This document shows positions 25,629 through 54,284 of a stretch of DNA of 64,000 bases, piece by piece. The position numbers and the translations under genes were made by a program. The stretch is from Alphaproteobacteria bacterium casp-alpha6. Lineage in GTDB: Bacteria > Pseudomonadota > Alphaproteobacteria > Rhodobacterales > Rhodobacteraceae. The notes beneath the pieces were generated by a model. The model did no database searches. It saw nothing but the letters and a program-made list of their open reading frames with translations, and was not told the origin of the DNA. The first letter of the stretch is position 1. Every line of letters begins with the position of its first letter. The stretch covers positions 52,988-116,987 of the forward strand of contig LFER01000002.1 in assembly GCA_001510135.1 (NCBI GenBank). Reading direction: 5' to 3'.

Positions 25629-26330
25629 TTAGAGTCGCGTTGTCATTTGATATCCGGCGTGGAAATAAAGTTTGGCATATGTCAATGGCATGGCTTTAAA
25701 CCATGTGATTCGCTCCAGTGTAAAAAGTGCGGCACCCAAAGGCACATTAAGCATCTCTGACAACATCTGATCCGCATTGACCGTCGAAAATATCACTTCT
25801 GCATCAGAGAAGGGGACCTCACGGATCAGCCATTCGTTCGGGTTGATGTCTTCAAATGCCTGAACGCGGGCCTTTGGAACAGATGCAAGGTTGATCCAGC
25901 GGTCCTCGTATTGAAACGCGCGGCTGCCCGCATAGTGCATACATCGCAGATGAAGAACGTCATCTCCTCCTTTCCTTCCCATCCGCGCACGCATCCAATC
26001 GGGGGGTGTTTCTTCGGTGCGCTCAATCAGGGCGTAACGATAGTCAAAACCTGTTGCTTCGATTTCCTCCCGAATGCGCGGAATGACAAATTTAGCTTGG
26101 CGGGTTGGTGAGGATTTTATCCGTGTTCCGGCCTTGCGTTTGCGTTCAATGACGCCGTCGCTGGCCAATTCGCGTAGGGCGCGGTTCACGGTTGCGCGGG
26201 CGCACCCGAATTCCTCTGACAGGGCAACCTCGCCCGGCATCAAAGATCCCGGCGCCCAGACTGTATCATGAATGCGTTTCAGGATCGCATTTTTGACGTC
26301 AACATAGGACGTTTTTTGGATCGCGCTCAT
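25629..26330 (-). CDS. hutC: GntR-family histidine utilisation repressor HutC
   Basis: 'MPGEVALSEEFGCARATVNRALRELASDGVIERKRKAGTRI' GntR wHTH, UTRA domain; adjacent to hutF. Confidence 0.92.
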   Translation of the reverse strand: MSAIQKTSYVDVKNAILKRIHDTVWAPGSLMPGEVALSEEFGCARATVNRALRELASDGVIERKRKAGTRIKSSPTRQAKFVIPRIREEIEATGFDYRYALIERTEETPPDWMRARMGRKGGDDVLHLRCMHYAGSRAFQYEDRWINLASVPKARVQAFEDINPNEWLIREVPFSDAEVIFSTVNADQMLSEMLNVPLGAALFTLERITWFKAMPLTYAKLYFHAGYQMTTRL

Positions 26331-27691
26331 CTCAGGCGATCCTTAAGGTCATGAACACACTGCCGATATCGTGCGGTGATTTGAGGTCCATTGATATGGC
26401 GGCCTTCGCGTACCATATGCCGCCCTGCGCTCCATAGATCGCTGACAACCTGATCTTTGGCGGCAAAGACCAATCCGTCGAGCAGTTGTTCGTCAGAGAG
26501 CGCGAAAAGCGCAGGATCATTGCGATCAATCGCAACCAAATCCGCAAGCTGCCCGACCGCAATGGCGCCGCATGCACGCCCCAAGGCCCGCGCACCCCCT
26601 TTTGCAGCGCTGAGATAAAGTGCCTCTCCGGTGGATCCGGCCCCCTTTGTCATCACATTGCGTTCCCTTTGGCTAAGGCGCTGAGAATATTCAAGGGTCC
26701 GTAATTCTTCGGTCAGCGAAATATTTATGTTTGAATCAGAGCCAACTCCATAATGTCCACCCGCAGCAACAAACGCAGAACCATTGAATATTCCATCGCC
26801 AAGATTGGCCTCGGTAATCGGGCAAAGGCCGACGGTTGCTCCGGTCTGCGCAAGGGCGCGGGTTTCTGAAACTGTCATATGGGTCGCGTGGATCAGGCAC
26901 CAACGCGCGCTGACCTCATAGTGGTTTAACAACCACTCTACGGGGCGCGAACCATAGGCGCTTGTGATATCTTCCACTTCTTTTGTTTGCTCTGAAATAT
27001 GAATATGAAGGGGGGTTTTGGCATCATCGCCTACCAATGCGCCAAGGTCCTCTGGCGAGACGGCGCGTAGGGAATGGGCCGCAACGCCAAGCTGGGCATC
27101 TGAAGGCAAAATGGTGAGGTGATGCGCACAGGCTTCGTTAAGACGGTGATAACGCTCCAGCGTATTGCCAAAACGAAGCTGTCCACCTGACAGCGGTGCT
27201 TGCTCAACGCCTCCGTAGGTATAAAGTACCGGCAAATGTGTGATCCCAATTCCAGTCTCTGCTGCAGCCTCTATGATCTGCACTGATAATTCCGCGATAT
27301 CATCATAGGGGCGACCCCCCGCTCGATGATGCAGATAATGGAATTCGCCGACCGACGCGTAGCCTGCTTTCTGCATTTCCATAAAGGTCATTGCAGCAAT
27401 GGCCTGAATATCCTGCGGACGGAGCTGATCAAGGAACCGATACATCAGCTCCCGCCACGTCCAGAAACTTTCACGGTCTTTGGCGCGATATTCGCTCATG
27501 CCTGCCATGGCGCGCTGAAAGCTGTGGCTATGCAAATTTGGCAGCGCCGGCAGAAGCGTATCGACGCGCAGATCGCCTGCAACCGGTGCTGATTGAGGCT
27601 GGACTGCACGGATGATCCCCGTCTCAACCGTGATCCTCACATCCTTTGCCCATCCGGTGGGCAACCGCGCCGTATCAGCAAATATCTGCAT
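26327..27691 (-). CDS. hutF: Formimidoylglutamate deiminase HutF
   Basis: '[37 protein letters not shown]' HutF signature. Confidence 0.95.
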
Positions 27692-27707
27692 GTTGATACC
27701 TTATTAT

Positions 27708-27715
27708 GTATAGAC
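27708..27715. promoter_or_regulatory. Candidate HutC operator GTATAGAC in TATGTATAGACATA
   Basis: Matches the HutC-subfamily GntR consensus GT-N-TA-N-AC inside a near-palindrome (27705-27718) between divergent hutF and hutI. Confidence 0.65.
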
Positions 27716-27760
27716 ATAATATCTATAAATACATACAATTTGAATTGCAACAATGTGAAA

Positions 27761-28984
27761 ATGGTTAGGGCAAACAGGGTGAGCCAGAGGGTCTTGCGAA
27801 ACTGCCGCATCGCACGGATGCTTGATCAGCAAAGCGGATATGGGCTTTTGGAAGACGGCGCGCTTGTGTTGGAGGAAGGGCGGATTGTTTGGGTGGGTCG
27901 TCAGGACGCCCTGCCAGAGCCATTTGCGCAACGTCCTGCAACAGACCTTGAAGGGCGACTTGTGACGCCTGCCTTCATTGATTGTCACACACATATCGTG
28001 CATGGCGGCAACCGCGCAAAAGAGTTTGAAATGCGCCTCAATGGAGAAAGTTACGAGGCCATAGCAAAGGCCGGGGGCGGGATTATCTCAACCGTTTCTG
28101 CCACACGCCTGTCCAGTGAAGACGCGCTATTGAACGAGGCACTCCCACGGGTTGACGCTTTGATTGCAGAAGGGGTCAGCACGATTGAAATCAAATCAGG
28201 TTACGGGCTTGACCGCGATACAGAATTAAAGATGCTCCGCGTCGCGCGCCGTATCTCCAAAGTGCGTCAGGTGGAAGTGGTGACAAGCTTTCTTGGGGCC
28301 CATGCCATACCGGCAGAATACAAAGGCCGTGCTACAGAGTATATGTCCGACGTATGTTTGCCAACGCTGCGCGCGGCTGTTGCAGAAGGTTTGGTGGACG
28401 GGGTGGATGCCTTTTGCGAAGGTATTGCATTTCAGGCCGAGGAACTCGTTCCACTTTTTGAGCTGGCGCAAAGTTTGAATATCCCTATGAAACTTCATGC
28501 AGAGCAGCTTTCAAACCTCGGGGGGGCGAAATTCGCGGCCCGGTATGGGGCGCTCTCGGCGGATCATCTGGAATATCTTGATGAAAGCGGTGTTCTTGCC
28601 ATGTCAGGGGCAGGCATGGTCGCCGTTCTTTTGCCTGGGGCCTATTACACGCTGCGCGAAACGCAGATGCCGCCAGTCGATTTGTTTAGAAAATATAATG
28701 TTCCAATGGCGCTTTCGAGTGATGCAAATCCCGGCTCTTCGCCCATGACGTCGCTTCTTTTGACGATGAATATGGCCTGTACATTGTTTCGTCTCACTCC
28801 CGAAGAAGCGCTCTCTGGTGTCACGCGCAATGCTGCAAAGGCGTTAGGACTTGGCGACAGGGGTGTGATTACCGAAGGATACCGTGCCGATTTGGCTGTC
28901 TGGAATGTGAAAGATCCCGCGGAATTGGCATATCGCATCGGGTTTAACCCGCTTTATAAACGCATTTGGGGGGGGGATGGATGA
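27761..28984 (+). CDS. hutI: Imidazolonepropionase
   Basis: '[44 protein letters not shown]' HutI signature; ATG at 27761 leaves room for the operator. Confidence 0.95.
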
Positions 28985-30516
28985 CCATCCTAAAGCTCAA
29001 CCCCGGTCAAGTCACTTTAAAAGACCTCTTTACGATTTATCGTGACGGGGTCTCAGTGACGCTCCTTGAAACCTGCCGTCCAAGGGTTGAGGCCGCAGCC
29101 GCGCAAATTGCCAAGGCCGCAGAAGGCGAACAGCCGGTTTATGGGGTGAACACAGGATTTGGCAAGCTCGCGAGCCTCAAAATTGCGTCTGCGCAAACGG
29201 CCACCTTACAGCGTAATCTAATCCTGTCCCATTGCTGCGGCGTTGGTGAACGGATTTCAAATTCGATGGTGCGTCTGATTATTGCGCTGAAGCTTCTCTC
29301 GCTCGGGCGCGGGGCGTCGGGTGTGCGCTGGGACGTCATTGATTTGATGCAGAACATGTTGATCAAAGGGGTCACACCTGTGATTCCAGCACAGGGGTCC
29401 GTCGGGGCCTCAGGCGATCTTGCACCTCTTGCACATATGAGTGCAGTGCTGATCGGGGAGGGAGAGGCCGATTTTCAGGGCGAAACACTTCAAGGGGGAA
29501 AGGCGCTGCTGAAGGCAGGTCTGCGCCCCGTGACGCTTGGCCCCAAAGAGGGATTGGCTCTCATCAACGGGACCCAGTTTTCAACAGCATTTGCGCTGGC
29601 CGGTTTGTTCGAAGCATGGAAGCTTGCGCAATCAGCCCTGATAATTTCAGCGATGTCGACAGATGCGATCATGGGATCAACCGCGCCGCTGCATCCTGAA
29701 ATTCATGCACTCAGAGGTCACAGAGGCCAAATCGAGGTGGCGGCCTTGATGCGTGCGATCCTGAACGGGTCTGAGATCCGTGAAAGCCACCGCGACGGGG
29801 ACAGCCGCGTGCAGGATCCCTATTGCATCCGCTGCCAACCGCAAGTCACGGGGGCCGCGATGGATATCTTGCGGCAGGCTGCCCATACGCTTTGTATTGA
29901 GGCCAACGCCGCAACCGACAATCCGCTCGTTCTGATAGATGAGGGACGGATCGTGTCTGGCGGAAATTTTCATGCAGAGCCCGTTGGCTTTGCAGCGGAC
30001 ATGATCGCGCTTGCTTTGTCTGAAATTGGTTCGATCGCGCAACGGCGTGTTGCTTTGATGGTGGACCCAACACTTTCCTTTGACCTGCCTCCTTTTCTAA
30101 CTCCTCAGCCGGGCTTAAATTCGGGATTCATGATTGCCGAAGTGACCACTGCAGCGCTGATGAGTGAAAACAAACATCTGGCAAACCCTTGCGTTACGGA
30201 CAGTACGCCCACCTCTGCCAATCAAGAAGACCACGTATCCATGGCCGCTCATGGGGCATTTCGCCTGCTCAGGATGTCCCAGAACCTTAAAAAGATTATT
30301 GCGATTGAACTCCTTTGCGCGGCGCAGGGTGTAGAATTTAGAGCGCCTCTAAAGACCAGCCTGCCTTTGCAAGCCTGTATTGACGCCTTGCGCAAAGATA
30401 TTCCGCCACTGCGAGAAGACCGCTATCTTGCCAAAGACATTGAGCGTGCCTCGGAGTTCGTGGGATCCGGTGCGTGCTTAAGGCTTGTCTCAATCCCTAT
30501 CCCCGAATTGGATTAG
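28981..30516 (+). CDS. hutH: Histidine ammonia-lyase
   Basis: '[25 protein letters not shown]' MIO (ASG) motif; overlaps hutI by 4 nt. Confidence 0.97.
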
Positions 30517-47872: not shown

Positions 47873-49356
47873 TGTTGATCCAAGATCATGATCGCGCGGG
47901 CGGATATTGGGGGGCGGTTTATGCCTTTTGCGCGGTCAAGGGACTTCAATGTGTGATTGACGGGCCGGTTGGTTGTGAAAACCTTCCCGTGACTTCTGTG
48001 CTGCATTACACAGATGCCTTACCGCCTCATGAGCTTCCGATCGTTGTGACAGGGCTGGGCGAGGAAGAGCTCGGTCGCGACGGTACCGAAGGCGCGATGA
48101 AACGGGCATGGGGCACGCTTGATCCCGCACTTCCAGCGGTGGTTGTCACCGGATCAATCGCCGAAATGATCGGTGGCGGAGTGACCCCGCAGGGAACAAA
48201 TATTCAACGCTTTCTGCCGCGCACCATTGATGAGGATCAATGGGAAGCCGCAGACAGGGCCATGACGTGGATATTCACCGAATTTGGAATGACCAAGGGC
48301 CGCATGCCGCCTGAGAAAAAACGCGCAGAGGATGCGAAACCCCGTGTCAATATTTTGGGCCCGATGTATGGCACATTCAACATGCCAAGCGACCTTGCTG
48401 AAATCCGCCGTCTGGTCGAAGGCATTGGGGCTGAGGTCAACATGGTCATGCCCCTTGGCGCCCATATTGCCGAAATGCGTGATCTGGTGAATGCGGATGT
48501 GAATATATGCATGTATCGGGAATTTGGCCGCGGGCTTTGCGAAGTGCTCGGCAAACCATACTTGCAAGCGCCGATCGGTGTGGACAGTACCACGAAGTTC
48601 CTGCGCAAGCTTGGGGAATTGCTTCAGCTTGATCCGGAACCATTCATCGTACGGGAAAAACATTCCACCATCAAACCGGTTTGGGATTTATGGCGCTCTG
48701 TGACGCAGGATTTCTTTGCGACGGCAAGCTTTGCGATTGTTGCGAATGAAACCTATGCACGTGGCATTCGTAATTACCTTGAAGATGATCTTGGCCTGCC
48801 TTGCGCTTTCGCCGTTGCCCGCGCACGGGGCAGCAAAACGAATAATAATGAAGTGCGCGCGCTTATGGCGCAAAAACGTCCCTTGGTCGTTCTCGGTAGC
48901 ATAAATGAAAAAATGTATCTCGCCGAATTGAAAGGCGGTCACGGGCCAAGCCCTGCCTTTATTCCCGCTTCCTTTCCAGGTGCTGCTATTCGCCGCGCCA
49001 CAGGCACACCGATGATGGGATATGCGGGGGCCACTTATTTGCTGCAAGAAGTCTGTAATGGGCTTTTTGATGCGCTCTTTCATATTCTGCCTCTGGGCAG
49101 TGATATGGATCAGGCAGAAGCCACGCTCACCCCATTAAAACGCGATTTCCCTTGGGATGCAGATGCCCAAGCAGCTCTGGATCGCATCGTTGCACAGCAT
49201 CCTATTTTGACCCGTATTTCTGCCGCTAAAAACCTGCGAGATGCCGCTGAAAAGGCAGCCCTTTCTGCAGGTGCAGAACGCGTGGTGATCGAAACAGTTC
49301 TTGCGCTTGAGCCCACTGCAAGCGCCCCCAATAAAGGAGGAGCAAAAGATGACTGA
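47872..49356 (+). CDS. bchZ: Chlorophyllide reductase subunit BchZ
   Basis: '[56 protein letters not shown]'. Confidence 0.97.
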
Positions 49357-49570
49357 TATTGCTTCAAACACCCCAAAACCCCGCGGTCAGAACCGCCGGA
49401 GTTTGGAATATATTCTGTATTTCAGCCTCATATTCGTGCTGGCAATTCCCTTTGTCACCGTTTTTTGGGTGCTGGATGTGATCCGGAAACAGACGCTTAT
49501 GCTTCATGGACCGCTCGCGCGGGCCTGGGCTGAGGCGGACCGGGTGACACCCCTGATTTTCTCTCTCTGA
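49349..49570 (+). CDS. pufQ: PufQ, bacteriochlorophyll-related protein
   Basis: 73 aa, one TM, '[31 protein letters not shown]'; overlaps the bchZ stop and precedes pufB. Confidence 0.92.
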
Positions 49571-49696: not shown

Positions 49697-49861
49697 ATGG
49701 CTGATAGAAGTGACCTGTCTTTCACAGGTCTTACAGACGAACAAGCGCAGGAACTGCACTCAGTGTATATGAGCGGTCTTTGGCTATTTGCGATAGCCTG
49801 TCTGATCGCCCACATCGCGACGTACATGTGGCTGCCTTGGTTCACTAATTGGGGAGGCTAA
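49697..49861 (+). CDS. pufB: Light-harvesting 1 beta chain PufB (not in supplied ORF track)
   Basis: Direct reading: [54 protein letters not shown], canonical LH1 beta with conserved His. Confidence 0.97.
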
Positions 49862-49864
49862 GAC

Positions 49865-50023
49865 ATGGCTAATTTTTATAAAATCTGGCTAGTTTTCGAT
49901 CCGCGCCGCGTTTTCGTGGTGCAGGGTGTCTTCCTCTTTTTGCTGGCGGCGATGATCCATCTTGTCGTCCTGAGCAATTTCAACTGGTTTGAAAAGGCTG
50001 TCGCGGCAGCCGGAGCCGGCTGA
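49865..50023 (+). CDS. pufA: Light-harvesting 1 alpha chain PufA (not in supplied ORF track)
   Basis: Direct reading: [52 protein letters not shown], canonical LH1 alpha. Confidence 0.97.
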
Positions 50024-50044: not shown

Positions 50045-50080
50045 GCTGTGGGCAGGGGCATACCACCTGCTGCCCACAGC
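50045..50080 (+). other. Intercistronic stem-loop between pufA and pufL
   Basis: GCTGTGGGCAG (50045-50055) pairs perfectly with CTGCCCACAGC (50070-50080), 14-nt loop. Confidence 0.85.
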
Positions 50081-50148: not shown

Positions 50149-50997
50149 ATGGCGTTGTTAAGTTTTGAAAAAAAATATCGCGTCCGAGGGGGAACGTTAA
50201 TAGGCGGTGATCTGTTCGATTTCTGGATCGGACCCTTCTATGTAGGGTTTTTTGGTGTCACCACTGCCTTTTTCGCCCTTCTTGGGACGATATTGATCTT
50301 TTACGGAGCAGCAATCGGGGGCACTTGGAACCCGTTTCTGATCTCAATTGAGCCGCCCGAATTAGAGGTCGGGCTTGGAATGGCCCCGCTTGCCGAAGGC
50401 GGGTTATGGCAGCTCATCACAATGTGCGCGACAGTTGCGTTTGTCAGTTGGGCGCTGCGGGAGGTCGAAATTGCCCGTAAACTGGGCATGGGGCTTCACG
50501 TGCCATTTGCCTTTGCCTTTGCCATTCTTGCTTATATCACATTGGTGGTGATCCGCCCTGTGTTGATGGGCGCTTGGGGGCATGGTTTCCCTTATGGCAT
50601 CTTTAGCCACCTCGATTGGGTGAACAATGTGGGATACGCCTATGGCAATTTCCATTATAACCCGGCGCATATGATTGCGATCACCTTCTTCTTTACCACA
50701 ACGCTCGCATTGGCTTTGCACGGGTCCTTGATCCTCTCTGCAGCGAATCCTGAAAAAGGCGAACAAATGCGTCAGCCTGAACACGAAGACACGTTTTTTC
50801 GTGATTTCATCGGATATTCGATTGGGCCGCTTGGGATCCACCGTTTAGGTCTTTTCTTGGCGCTTAGCGCGGTGTTCTGGTCAGCGGTTTGTATCGTTGT
50901 GTCTGGTACAGTGTGGTTCGATGCCTGGGCCGACTGGTGGTACTGGTACGTTGATTTGCCCTTCTGGGCTGACTTGGAAGGAGGCGTCAATGGTTGA
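50149..50997 (+). CDS. pufL: Photosynthetic reaction centre subunit L
   Basis: '[41 protein letters not shown]'. Confidence 0.98.
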
Positions 50998-51913
50998 GTA
51001 TCAAAACATATTTACGCAAGTTCAGGTCCAAGGACCGCCTGAAATGGGTGTGGTTGAGGACGTTGATCTGCGTGAACGCAGCAATGCCACTGCATTTTCG
51101 AAACTCTTTGGCTGGTTTGGGAATGCACAATTAGGTCCATTTTATCTGGGAGCTTTAGGGTTTGCCTCTCTCGCCTCCGGTCTTGCGTGGTTCTTAATTG
51201 TCGGATTGAGTTACTGGCAACAAGCCGGTTGGAACCCAGGCGTATTTGTGCGGGATCTGTTTTACTTCTCGCTTGAACCGCCGGCACCCGAATATGGGCT
51301 GGGCATTCCTCCGCTCAAAGAGGGTGGACTTTGGTTTATTGCCAGCTTCTTCCTCTTGGTATCCGTGATGACGTGGTGGGCGCGCGCCTATGTGCTCGCG
51401 CAGCAGCTAAAGATGGGCAAACATGTATTCTATGCCTTCGGATCAGCCATATGGTTGTTCCTTGTGCTTGGTCTCATCCGCCCAATCTTTATGGGAAGCT
51501 GGTCAGAAGCTGTGCCTTACGGCATTTTCTCGCACCTCGACTGGACCATGACCTTTTCAGTGACCTATGGAAACCTGTTCTACAATCCATTCCACGCGCT
51601 TTCGATTGCGTTCCTATATGGATCAGCGCTGCTCTTTGCGATGCATGGGGCGACCATCCTTGCGGTCTCTCGTTTCGGCGGAGATCGTGAATTGGAACAA
51701 ATCGCTGATCGGGGTACCGCCTCTGAACGTGCTGGTCTTTTCTGGCGCTGGACCATGGGCTTTAACGCCACGATGGAAGGCATCCACAGATGGGCTTGGT
51801 GGTTTGCGGTTCTGGTTCCGATCACCGGCGGTATTGGCATTCTACTGACCGGTACGGTCGTGGATAACTGGTATCTCTGGGCGCAGGAACATGGCTTTGC
51901 ACCGCTTGATTAA
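50990..51913 (+). CDS. pufM: Photosynthetic reaction centre subunit M
   Basis: '[20 protein letters not shown]....[17 protein letters not shown]'; overlaps pufL by 8 nt. Confidence 0.98.
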
Positions 51914-51925
51914 GGGAGAGGAACG

Positions 51926-52168
51926 ATGAGTTCGCAAAAACAAATCTTTGACGGAGACTTTTCTCCCGAACGTATCAAAAGCGAAGCCTTTGGCAATATG
52001 TTTGCCGGCGCCCTTTTCGGCGGGGCAGTGGTTGGGTTTATGGCGGTGTTCATAATTGTCTTGGTGGTGATCTCAAGCTGGTTGCCGCCAGAGTCAAAAG
52101 AGGCAGATGACCCCACACCAGATTCGTTCTCTTACCACGTTCTGCCAGATGAAGAGACCTTCGCATAA
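51926..52168 (+). CDS. Small single-TM protein in pufX position; candidate divergent PufX
   Basis: 80 aa: 'MSSQKQIFDGDFSPERIKSEAFGNMFAGALFGGAVVGFMAVFIIVLVVISSWLPPESK...'; N-terminal cytosolic stretch, one TM with tandem GxxxG, 'WLP' after the TM; between pufM and dxs as in Rhodobacter. Confidence 0.75.
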   Translation: MSSQKQIFDGDFSPERIKSEAFGNMFAGALFGGAVVGFMAVFIIVLVVISSWLPPESKEADDPTPDSFSYHVLPDEETFA

Positions 52169-52194: not shown

Positions 52195-52333
52195 GGAGCA
52201 GGCCTTTCCTGCTCCCCCGCCAGCCAGATTTGGCTCATTTTCCCGTGAGTCAAATGCGGGGTTTCTGCACCCCGGTTCCCTTCCTGTTGGCTACAGGAAA
52301 CTGCGCCACGTTTAGGTCCCTCTAAACGTGGCG
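52195..52333 (+). other. Cluster of five consecutive hairpins in the puf 3'UTR (candidate 3'UTR-derived sRNA region)
   Basis: Perfect stems at 52195-52215, 52222-52235, 52257-52274, 52281-52299 and 52304-52333. Confidence 0.6.
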
Positions 52334-52345
52334 TTCTTTTTTTAA
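52304..52345 (+). terminator. Rho-independent terminator of the puf operon
   Basis: CGCCACGTTTAG-gtccct-CTAAACGTGGCG perfect 12-bp stem followed by TTCTTTTTTT. Confidence 0.92.
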
Positions 52346-52370: not shown

Positions 52371-54284
52371 ATGAATCAGTATCGCGTTTTGGACCGGATT
52401 GCCGGACCCGCAGACATAAAGCTCCTCAGCGATCAAGACCTGTCACAGCTTGCCAAAGATGTGCGCGAGGAAGTTATCTCTGCTGTTTCAGAGACTGGCG
52501 GTCATCTTGGATCTTCCCTTGGAGTAGTGGAACTTACTGTGGCGCTGCATGCGGTTTTCAATACGCCGCTGGACAAAATCATCTGGGATGTGGGACATCA
52601 ATGTTACCCGCATAAGATCCTTACAGGACGCAGAGAGCGCATTCGCACTTTGCGCCAAAAGGATGGGTTGAGCGGGTTCACCAAGCGCAGTGAAAGCGAA
52701 TTTGATCCATTTGGGGCTGCGCATAGTTCCACTTCTATTTCTGCCGCCCTCGGATTTAGCGTTGGACGCGACATGGGCCAACCCGTCGGGGATGCCATCG
52801 CCGTGATCGGGGACGGGTCGATCAGTGCCGGTATGGCCTATGAAGCCATGAATAATGCCGGAAGTGAAAAAAGACGGTTGTTTGTGATCCTGAATGACAA
52901 CGAAATGTCTATTGCACCACCAGTGGGGGCGATGTCTTTGTACCTTTCGGGTCTTTATGCCAATGAACCGCTTGCCAAGATGAAATCTCTTGCCGAAGGG
53001 TTTGAGGCGGCTTTGCCCTCGCCTCTTCGTGACGGGGCAAAGCGTGCGCGTCAGCTTGTGACGGGATTGCATGGGTCCGGTACATTATTCGAAGAGCTCG
53101 GATTTGAATATGTCGGCCCTATCAATGGGCATGATTTAAACCAATTGCTGCCCGTCTTGCGTGCCGCGCGGGCAAGGGCAACGGGCCCCGTTTTGATCCA
53201 TGCTTGCACCGTCAAGGGCAAAGGCTATGCACCAGCCGAAAACTCTGCTGATAAATACCATGGGGTTTCAAAGTTTGATATCGCAACAGGCGCTCAGGCC
53301 AAATCCAAACCCAATGCGCCGTCTTACACCGCTGTCTTCGGAGAGGCGCTGACCGATGAAGCCTCACGCGATCCTAAAATCGTAGGCGTGACCGCGGCGA
53401 TGCCGTCGGGGACCGGACTGAATATCATGGCCAAAAAATTCCCCGGACGTGTGTTTGATGTCGGGATCGCAGAGCAGCATGGTGTGACCTTTGCGGCCGG
53501 CATGGCGGCCAGCGGGTTAAAACCGTTTTGTGCGATTTACTCTACTTTCCTGCAAAGGGGATATGATCAGGTGGTCCATGATGTGGCGCTTCAGGGATTG
53601 CCAGTGCGCTTTGCCATAGACCGCGCCGGCCTTGTGGGTGCGGATGGGGCCACCCATGCAGGGGCCTTTGATGTGGCCTATCTTGCCAATTTGCCGGGCT
53701 TTACGGTGATGGCCGCAGGGGATGAAGCCGAACTTGTTCATATGGTGGCCACTGCAGCGGCCTATGATGAGGGTCCAATTTCGTTTCGTTATCCACGCGG
53801 CAACGGTACGGGCGTAGTCCTTCCGGAGCGGGGAAGCATATTGGAAATTGGCAAAGGGCGTATCATTACAGAGGGAAGTGATGTTGCAATCTTGTCCTTT
53901 GGTGCCCATCTCAGCGAGGCAGAGCAGGCCGTGCGCCTGCTGGAACAACAGGGGGTAAGCGTGACCTTGGCAGATGCCCGATTTGCCAAACCGCTTGATA
54001 CCGACCTGATCCGTCAATTAGCTCGCAATCACGAAGCCCTGATCACGATTGAACAGGGGTCCGTAGGTGGTTTTGGAGCCATGGTGCTTCATCATCTGGC
54101 GGCAATAGGACAGCTTGACCGTGGCCTCAAGATCAGAACCATGACATTGCCGGATGTCTACATTGATCAGGCGTCCCCGTCTGAAATGTATACTGCGGCG
54201 GGTTTGACAGCGCAGGATATTGAACGCACGGCTCTTAATCTTGTGCGTCCGGCACATAACGTTGTGACTCTGTCACAAGCATAA
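52371..54284 (+). CDS. dxs: 1-deoxy-D-xylulose-5-phosphate synthase
   Basis: '[58 protein letters not shown]'; ATG at 52371. Confidence 0.97.

Follow-up and report, generated by a model that had tools for sequence, protein, structure and literature searches.

Layout of the puf locus

The window, by which we mean the whole stretch of 64,000 nucleotides analyzed here, carries the genes pufQ, pufB, pufA, pufL and pufM, followed by a small reading frame and by dxs (Table 1). The latter is the usual downstream neighbor of pufX or pufC in Rhodobacteraceae. Only 457 bp separate the pufM stop codon from the dxs start, and the coordinates bear out what an initial annotation of this DNA had stated, namely that the sole gene in this gap encodes an 80-residue protein with a single transmembrane (TM) helix (MSSQKQIFDGDFSPERIKSEAFGNMFAGALFGGAVVGFMAVFIIVLVVISSWLPPESKEADDPTPDSFSYHVLPDEETFA). 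Its ribosome-binding site is rated good, and the distance of 12 nt from the pufM stop codon is the most frequent spacing among 72 PufX loci. In comparisons with related operons the reading frame has a dN of about 0.08-0.19 at a dS of at least 0.94 (saturated in some pairs); since dN is low relative to dS, we consider it a real gene.

Table 1. Features of the puf locus (positions within the window).
Feature	Positions	Strand	Basis and remarks
pufQ	49349-49570	+	PF05398 75 bits
pufB, LH1 beta	49697-49861	+	PF00556 37.4 bits; NF040862 62.6 bits
pufA, LH1 alpha	49865-50023	+	PF00556 55 bits
Stable hairpin between pufA and pufL	50045-50080	+	fold z = -2.8
pufL	50149-50997	+	PF00124 328.8 bits
pufM	50990-51913	+	PF00124 328.7 bits; TIGR01115 518 bits
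Ribosome-binding site of pufX, GGGAGAGG	51914-51921	+	directly 3' of the pufM stop codon; read from sequence
pufX	51926-52168	+	80 aa, single TM helix; PF11511 23.0 bits; profile without own clade 59.9 bits; hhalign 98.7%; structure model
Strong intrinsic terminator ending the puf operon, 3' of pufX	52303-52344	+	14-pair stem (52303-52334) and T run; MFE -23.6, z = -5.2
dxs	52371-54284	+	PF13292 371 bits

In Rhodobacter, hairpins of the kind found between pufA and pufL stabilize the pufBA mRNA, and by analogy the same role is predicted for the one listed here. Elsewhere in the window, histidine-degradation genes (formimidoylglutamate deiminase and histidine ammonia-lyase, 26330-30513) adjoin the photosynthesis gene cluster with bchO, bchD and crtI.

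The gene order is thus pufM-pufX-dxs, with no pufC in the operon. The pufC model PF02276 (CytoC_RC) found no match between pufM and dxs nor elsewhere in the genome assembly, in agreement with the initial annotation as far as the puf locus is concerned; at an assembly completeness of 86%, a detached pufC retains a small probability. Applied to 298 genomes of the family, the same model recovers pufC in 54, with no E-value above 3e-83, and within the limit set by completeness the negative result in this genome is therefore meaningful. The 80-residue protein itself has no cysteine, no CxxCH heme site and no match to PF02276.

Anatomy of the 80-residue protein

In its size (PufX proteins are expected to have about 70-85 residues), its one TM helix, its short polar N-terminus and its periplasmic tail starting with Leu-Pro, the protein has the layout of PufX. 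AlphaFold, applied to the protein alone, predicts one helix at residues 14-52, with a pLDDT of 89-95 in the core and disordered ends; a Foldseek search of the PDB with this model returned nothing, as expected for a single helix. All features that had been named as PufX-like are present: the IF near the N-terminus, the charged N-terminal segment, the TM helix, the glycines G28, G32, G33 and G37, and the WLP that follows the helix. The weight given to the tandem GxxxG did not hold, however. A GxxxG within the helix region occurs in only 22 of the 72 PufX proteins, and in Rhodobacter sphaeroides PufX it lies away from the dimer interface (PMC9007983), so that the tandem motif is a trait of the clade and not a mark of the family. 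What is kept across the family are other positions, all of them found in the protein of the window: M25 (70 of 72), G28 (72), A29 (66), L53 (70), P54 (70) and P63 (63), with Leu and Pro occurring together after the TM helix in 69 of the 72. The most frequent periplasmic motif of PufX, LP-E-S-K-x-A-x-D-P, appears here as LPPESKEADDP.

The best-described counterpart for comparison is the PufX of R. sphaeroides (PDB 2nrg, 7f0l, 7vy2), which occupies the same position (pufQBALM-X-dxs, no pufC), has a similar length (82 residues against 80) and likewise forms a single TM helix. The cores of both proteins align without gaps and share M, G-A, G, L-P, A and P, whereas overall identity is about 21%; the N-terminal segment, which has been implicated in dimer contacts, and the C-terminal tail differ, and an arginine of the R. 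sphaeroides protein aligns with V47.

Profile evidence for PufX

The public model of the family, PF11511 (RhodobacterPufX), matches the protein at the right position with 23.0 bits (6.3e-5), just under the curated cut-off of 25 bits. This is the sole PF11511 match in the genome, but the score alone is weak, as unrelated proteins in relatives reach 17-20 bits. The Pfam seed is biased toward Rhodobacter and narrowly misses roseobacter members such as this one; 66 of the 68 PufX proteins in our survey pass the cut-off, and the protein of the window is one of the two that fall below it. Searches with lone sequences are not sensitive enough, given that R. sphaeroides PufX as the only query missed the gene and gave just a spurious match elsewhere in the genome. 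In the reverse direction, phmmer with the 80-residue protein against the PDB reached PufX only at E 0.38. NCBIfam gave no match for the protein.

Profiles were therefore built from reading frames extracted 3' of pufM in 124 retrieved puf loci. A profile of 11 PufX proteins, none of them near kin, gave the protein 35 bits. Profile A1, made of 23 PufX proteins and leaving out every member of the clade to which the protein belongs, gives it the top score in its genome, 59.9 bits (E 3.7e-16), against 12.8 bits at the second-best place; hhalign gave 98.7%. A family profile that includes the protein scores it at 86 bits. Conversely, profile A2, which consists of the protein and those of 17 further loci, recovers solved PufX chains from outside the profile (7ddq, 8ygd, 7yml, 8b64) with E-values up to 8e-7; its matches to PDB chains of R. 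sphaeroides PufX arise by construction, as that sequence (L080) is part of A2. The profile searches thus place the protein in the PufX family and not in an unrelated one. Its earlier description as very divergent applies with respect to the Rhodobacter-biased Pfam seed, but not to close relatives, whose PufX is 76-84% identical and from which graded intermediates lead to R. sphaeroides PufX.

Distribution of pufX and pufC in Rhodobacteraceae

Among 298 genomes of Rhodobacteraceae we found 126 pufM loci, in which the next gene is pufX in 68 cases and pufC in 54; two loci have neither gene and two lie at a contig end. About half of the phototrophs of this family hence carry PufX in place of the cytochrome. 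The distance from pufM to dxs ranges from 365 to 585 bp in the pufX operons (median 439) and from 1163 to 1445 bp in the pufC operons (median 1299), and the 457 bp of the window fall within the former range and outside the latter. Either pufX or pufC fills the slot, and the window matches the PufX type.

Evidence that is independent of the PufX profile comes from a tree of PufL and PufM with 127 rows. Here a single change separates pufX from pufC operons, as compared to about 41 in shuffles, with branch supports of 91 on the PufX side and 97 on the PufC side. All PufX operons lie to the same side of one branch in this tree, and the operon of the window falls deep among them, in a 10-operon PufX clade supported at 100. 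This first tree contained one faulty row (L048, in which PufM had been read as PufL) and one with an extremely long branch (L161); after removal of both and of three more long rows, pufX and pufC operons were still separated by one change and the same 10-row clade was recovered, although the PufX group is not strictly on one side once L113, a row with neither gene, is counted. The tree agrees with Brinkmann 2018 (PMC6052148), according to which pufX took the place of pufC once within Rhodobacteraceae, the roseobacters among them, and with a second published account of this replacement (PMC6739100).

Gene identity, homology, orthologous position and membership of the PufX lineage are thereby established, and the proposal that PufX stands in the place of pufC is borne out by profile A1 and by the PufL and PufM phylogeny. 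Overall, the best explanation, to which we assign a probability of about 0.96, is that the protein is an orthologue of PufX closing a pufQBALMX operon, with its function assigned by homology. The implication that a pufX would be odd in a roseobacter puf operon was overtaken by the literature, since marine roseobacter operons with pufX instead of pufC between pufM and dxs have been published (PMC6052148, PMC6739100). The case is sound but ordinary: it adds to the published pattern and is nothing unusual for the family. The protein shares the motif LP[P/E]ESKEA.DP with those of metagenome-assembled genomes of Sulfitobacter (L008) and Marinovum (L007), and its sub-clade differs from other marine roseobacter PufX in an FDGDFS N-terminus and in a helix sequence of its own; it is a further member and no new type. 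It also confirms that the PufX-type core complex reaches uncultured marine roseobacters.

Predicted role in the RC-LH1 complex

Solved complexes show PufX at the rim of LH1, where it holds the ring open and, through its periplasmic segment, touches PufL (PMC9007983). The protein of the window keeps the family-kept residues of this segment, from which we infer the same role. By analogy with solved Rhodobacter complexes, its N-terminus would face the cytoplasm, one tilted helix would lie at the ring edge next to PufL and the periplasmic tail LPPESKEADDPTP would rest on PufL. PufX would thereby prevent closure of the LH1 ring and permit ubiquinol to exit the reaction center, as opposed to the closed 17-unit ring of the pufC-type Dinoroseobacter shibae (PMC12079452). 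Without pufC, the photo-oxidized special pair would probably be re-reduced by a soluble or membrane-anchored monoheme cytochrome of the c2 or cy type; a membrane-anchored c552/cy-type cytochrome is encoded in the genome (G000:C42:120601).

One could also imagine a PufX homologue that has given up ring opening in this aerobic clade and only helps assembly or fills a structural gap. The helix is indeed more hydrophobic, positions 30-33 do not show the GAGYAA pattern, and the G33/G37 pattern is peculiar to the clade. Yet purifying selection has preserved the anchor residues G28-A29 and L53-P54 together with the periplasmic segment, and R. sphaeroides from which pufX has been deleted no longer grows photoheterotrophically (PMC9007983), which renders such a loss of function very improbable. 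As to oligomeric state, even Rhodobacter species differ from each other in the N-terminal details on which dimerization depends (PMC11463270), and judged by sequence the complex could be a monomer or a dimer. We regard it as rather unlikely, if conceivable, that the rewired helix and N-terminus of this sub-clade lead to an LH1 opening or a monomer/dimer state different from that of any solved Rhodobacter RC-LH1.

Homology and the relation to PufC

The initial annotation had left room for an analogue, that is, for a non-homologous single-TM protein that independently took the slot of pufC and acquired a PufX-like function. The PF11511 score below the cut-off and the low identity to R. sphaeroides PufX would fit such a scenario. 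The scores obtained without the protein's own clade (35 and 59.9 bits, and 98.7% with hhalign), the graded intermediates bearing the LPPESKEADDPTP motif and the PufL and PufM tree, which puts the complete operon within the lineage of PufX, argue strongly against it, and the A1 score and the tree together refute it; the protein is a homologue in orthologous position, and the chance of an analogue is minute.

Just as implausible is a freshly truncated pufC, of which merely the N-terminal TM segment would be left. In its favor, earlier work has suggested a link between PufX and the PufC N-terminus (Huck 2003; Tani 2022, PMC9640540), and the PufX profile gives 24 bits to the N-terminus of one divergent pufC. 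The protein of the window, however, has 6 bits with a PufC N-terminal profile as against 86 bits with the family profile of which it is part and 59.9 bits with A1. Its operon also belongs within the lineage of PufX operons, and any such origin would be ancestral to all PufX and not particular to this operon.

The N-terminal TM anchor of PufC, as in D. shibae and Rhodopila globiformis, shares slot and topology with the protein of the window (N-terminus inside, one TM helix, then periplasmic) and is a proposed relative of PufX. These PufC proteins differ in their tri- or tetraheme domain and closed LH1 rings, while the window protein lacks a heme motif. One profile-profile comparison of PufX and the PufC N-terminus gave a weak match (39.7%, 15% identity, E 3e-4), with the divergent PufC (G015) as an outlier, and the link stays a published hypothesis.

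Exceptions in the survey

The survey fits a single switch between pufC and pufX, and the operons that depart from the pattern, by the presence of both types or of neither gene, could be used to examine how and why it came about. Two genomes carry one pufX-type and one pufC-type operon each, G058 (L132/L161, on C2 and C3) and G195 (L126/L085, on C99 and C67), and the two PufM copies are 54% identical in the former and 73% in the latter. Mis-binning is less likely for G058, an assembly of 4 contigs that is 99% complete and 1% contaminated. These dual operons run contrary to a 2025 review, according to which no known phototroph has both pufX and pufC (PMC12654162).

Neither gene follows pufM in G075 (L113) and in G284 (L155), the latter having 77 bp between pufM and dxs; both loci branch just outside the PufX operons in the first tree. 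The divergent PufC of G015 (L075), whose N-terminal TM segment reaches the 24 bits with the PufX profile where other PufC stay below 6 bits, is a possible lead on the descent of PufX from a PufC anchor, an idea already put forward (PMC9640540).
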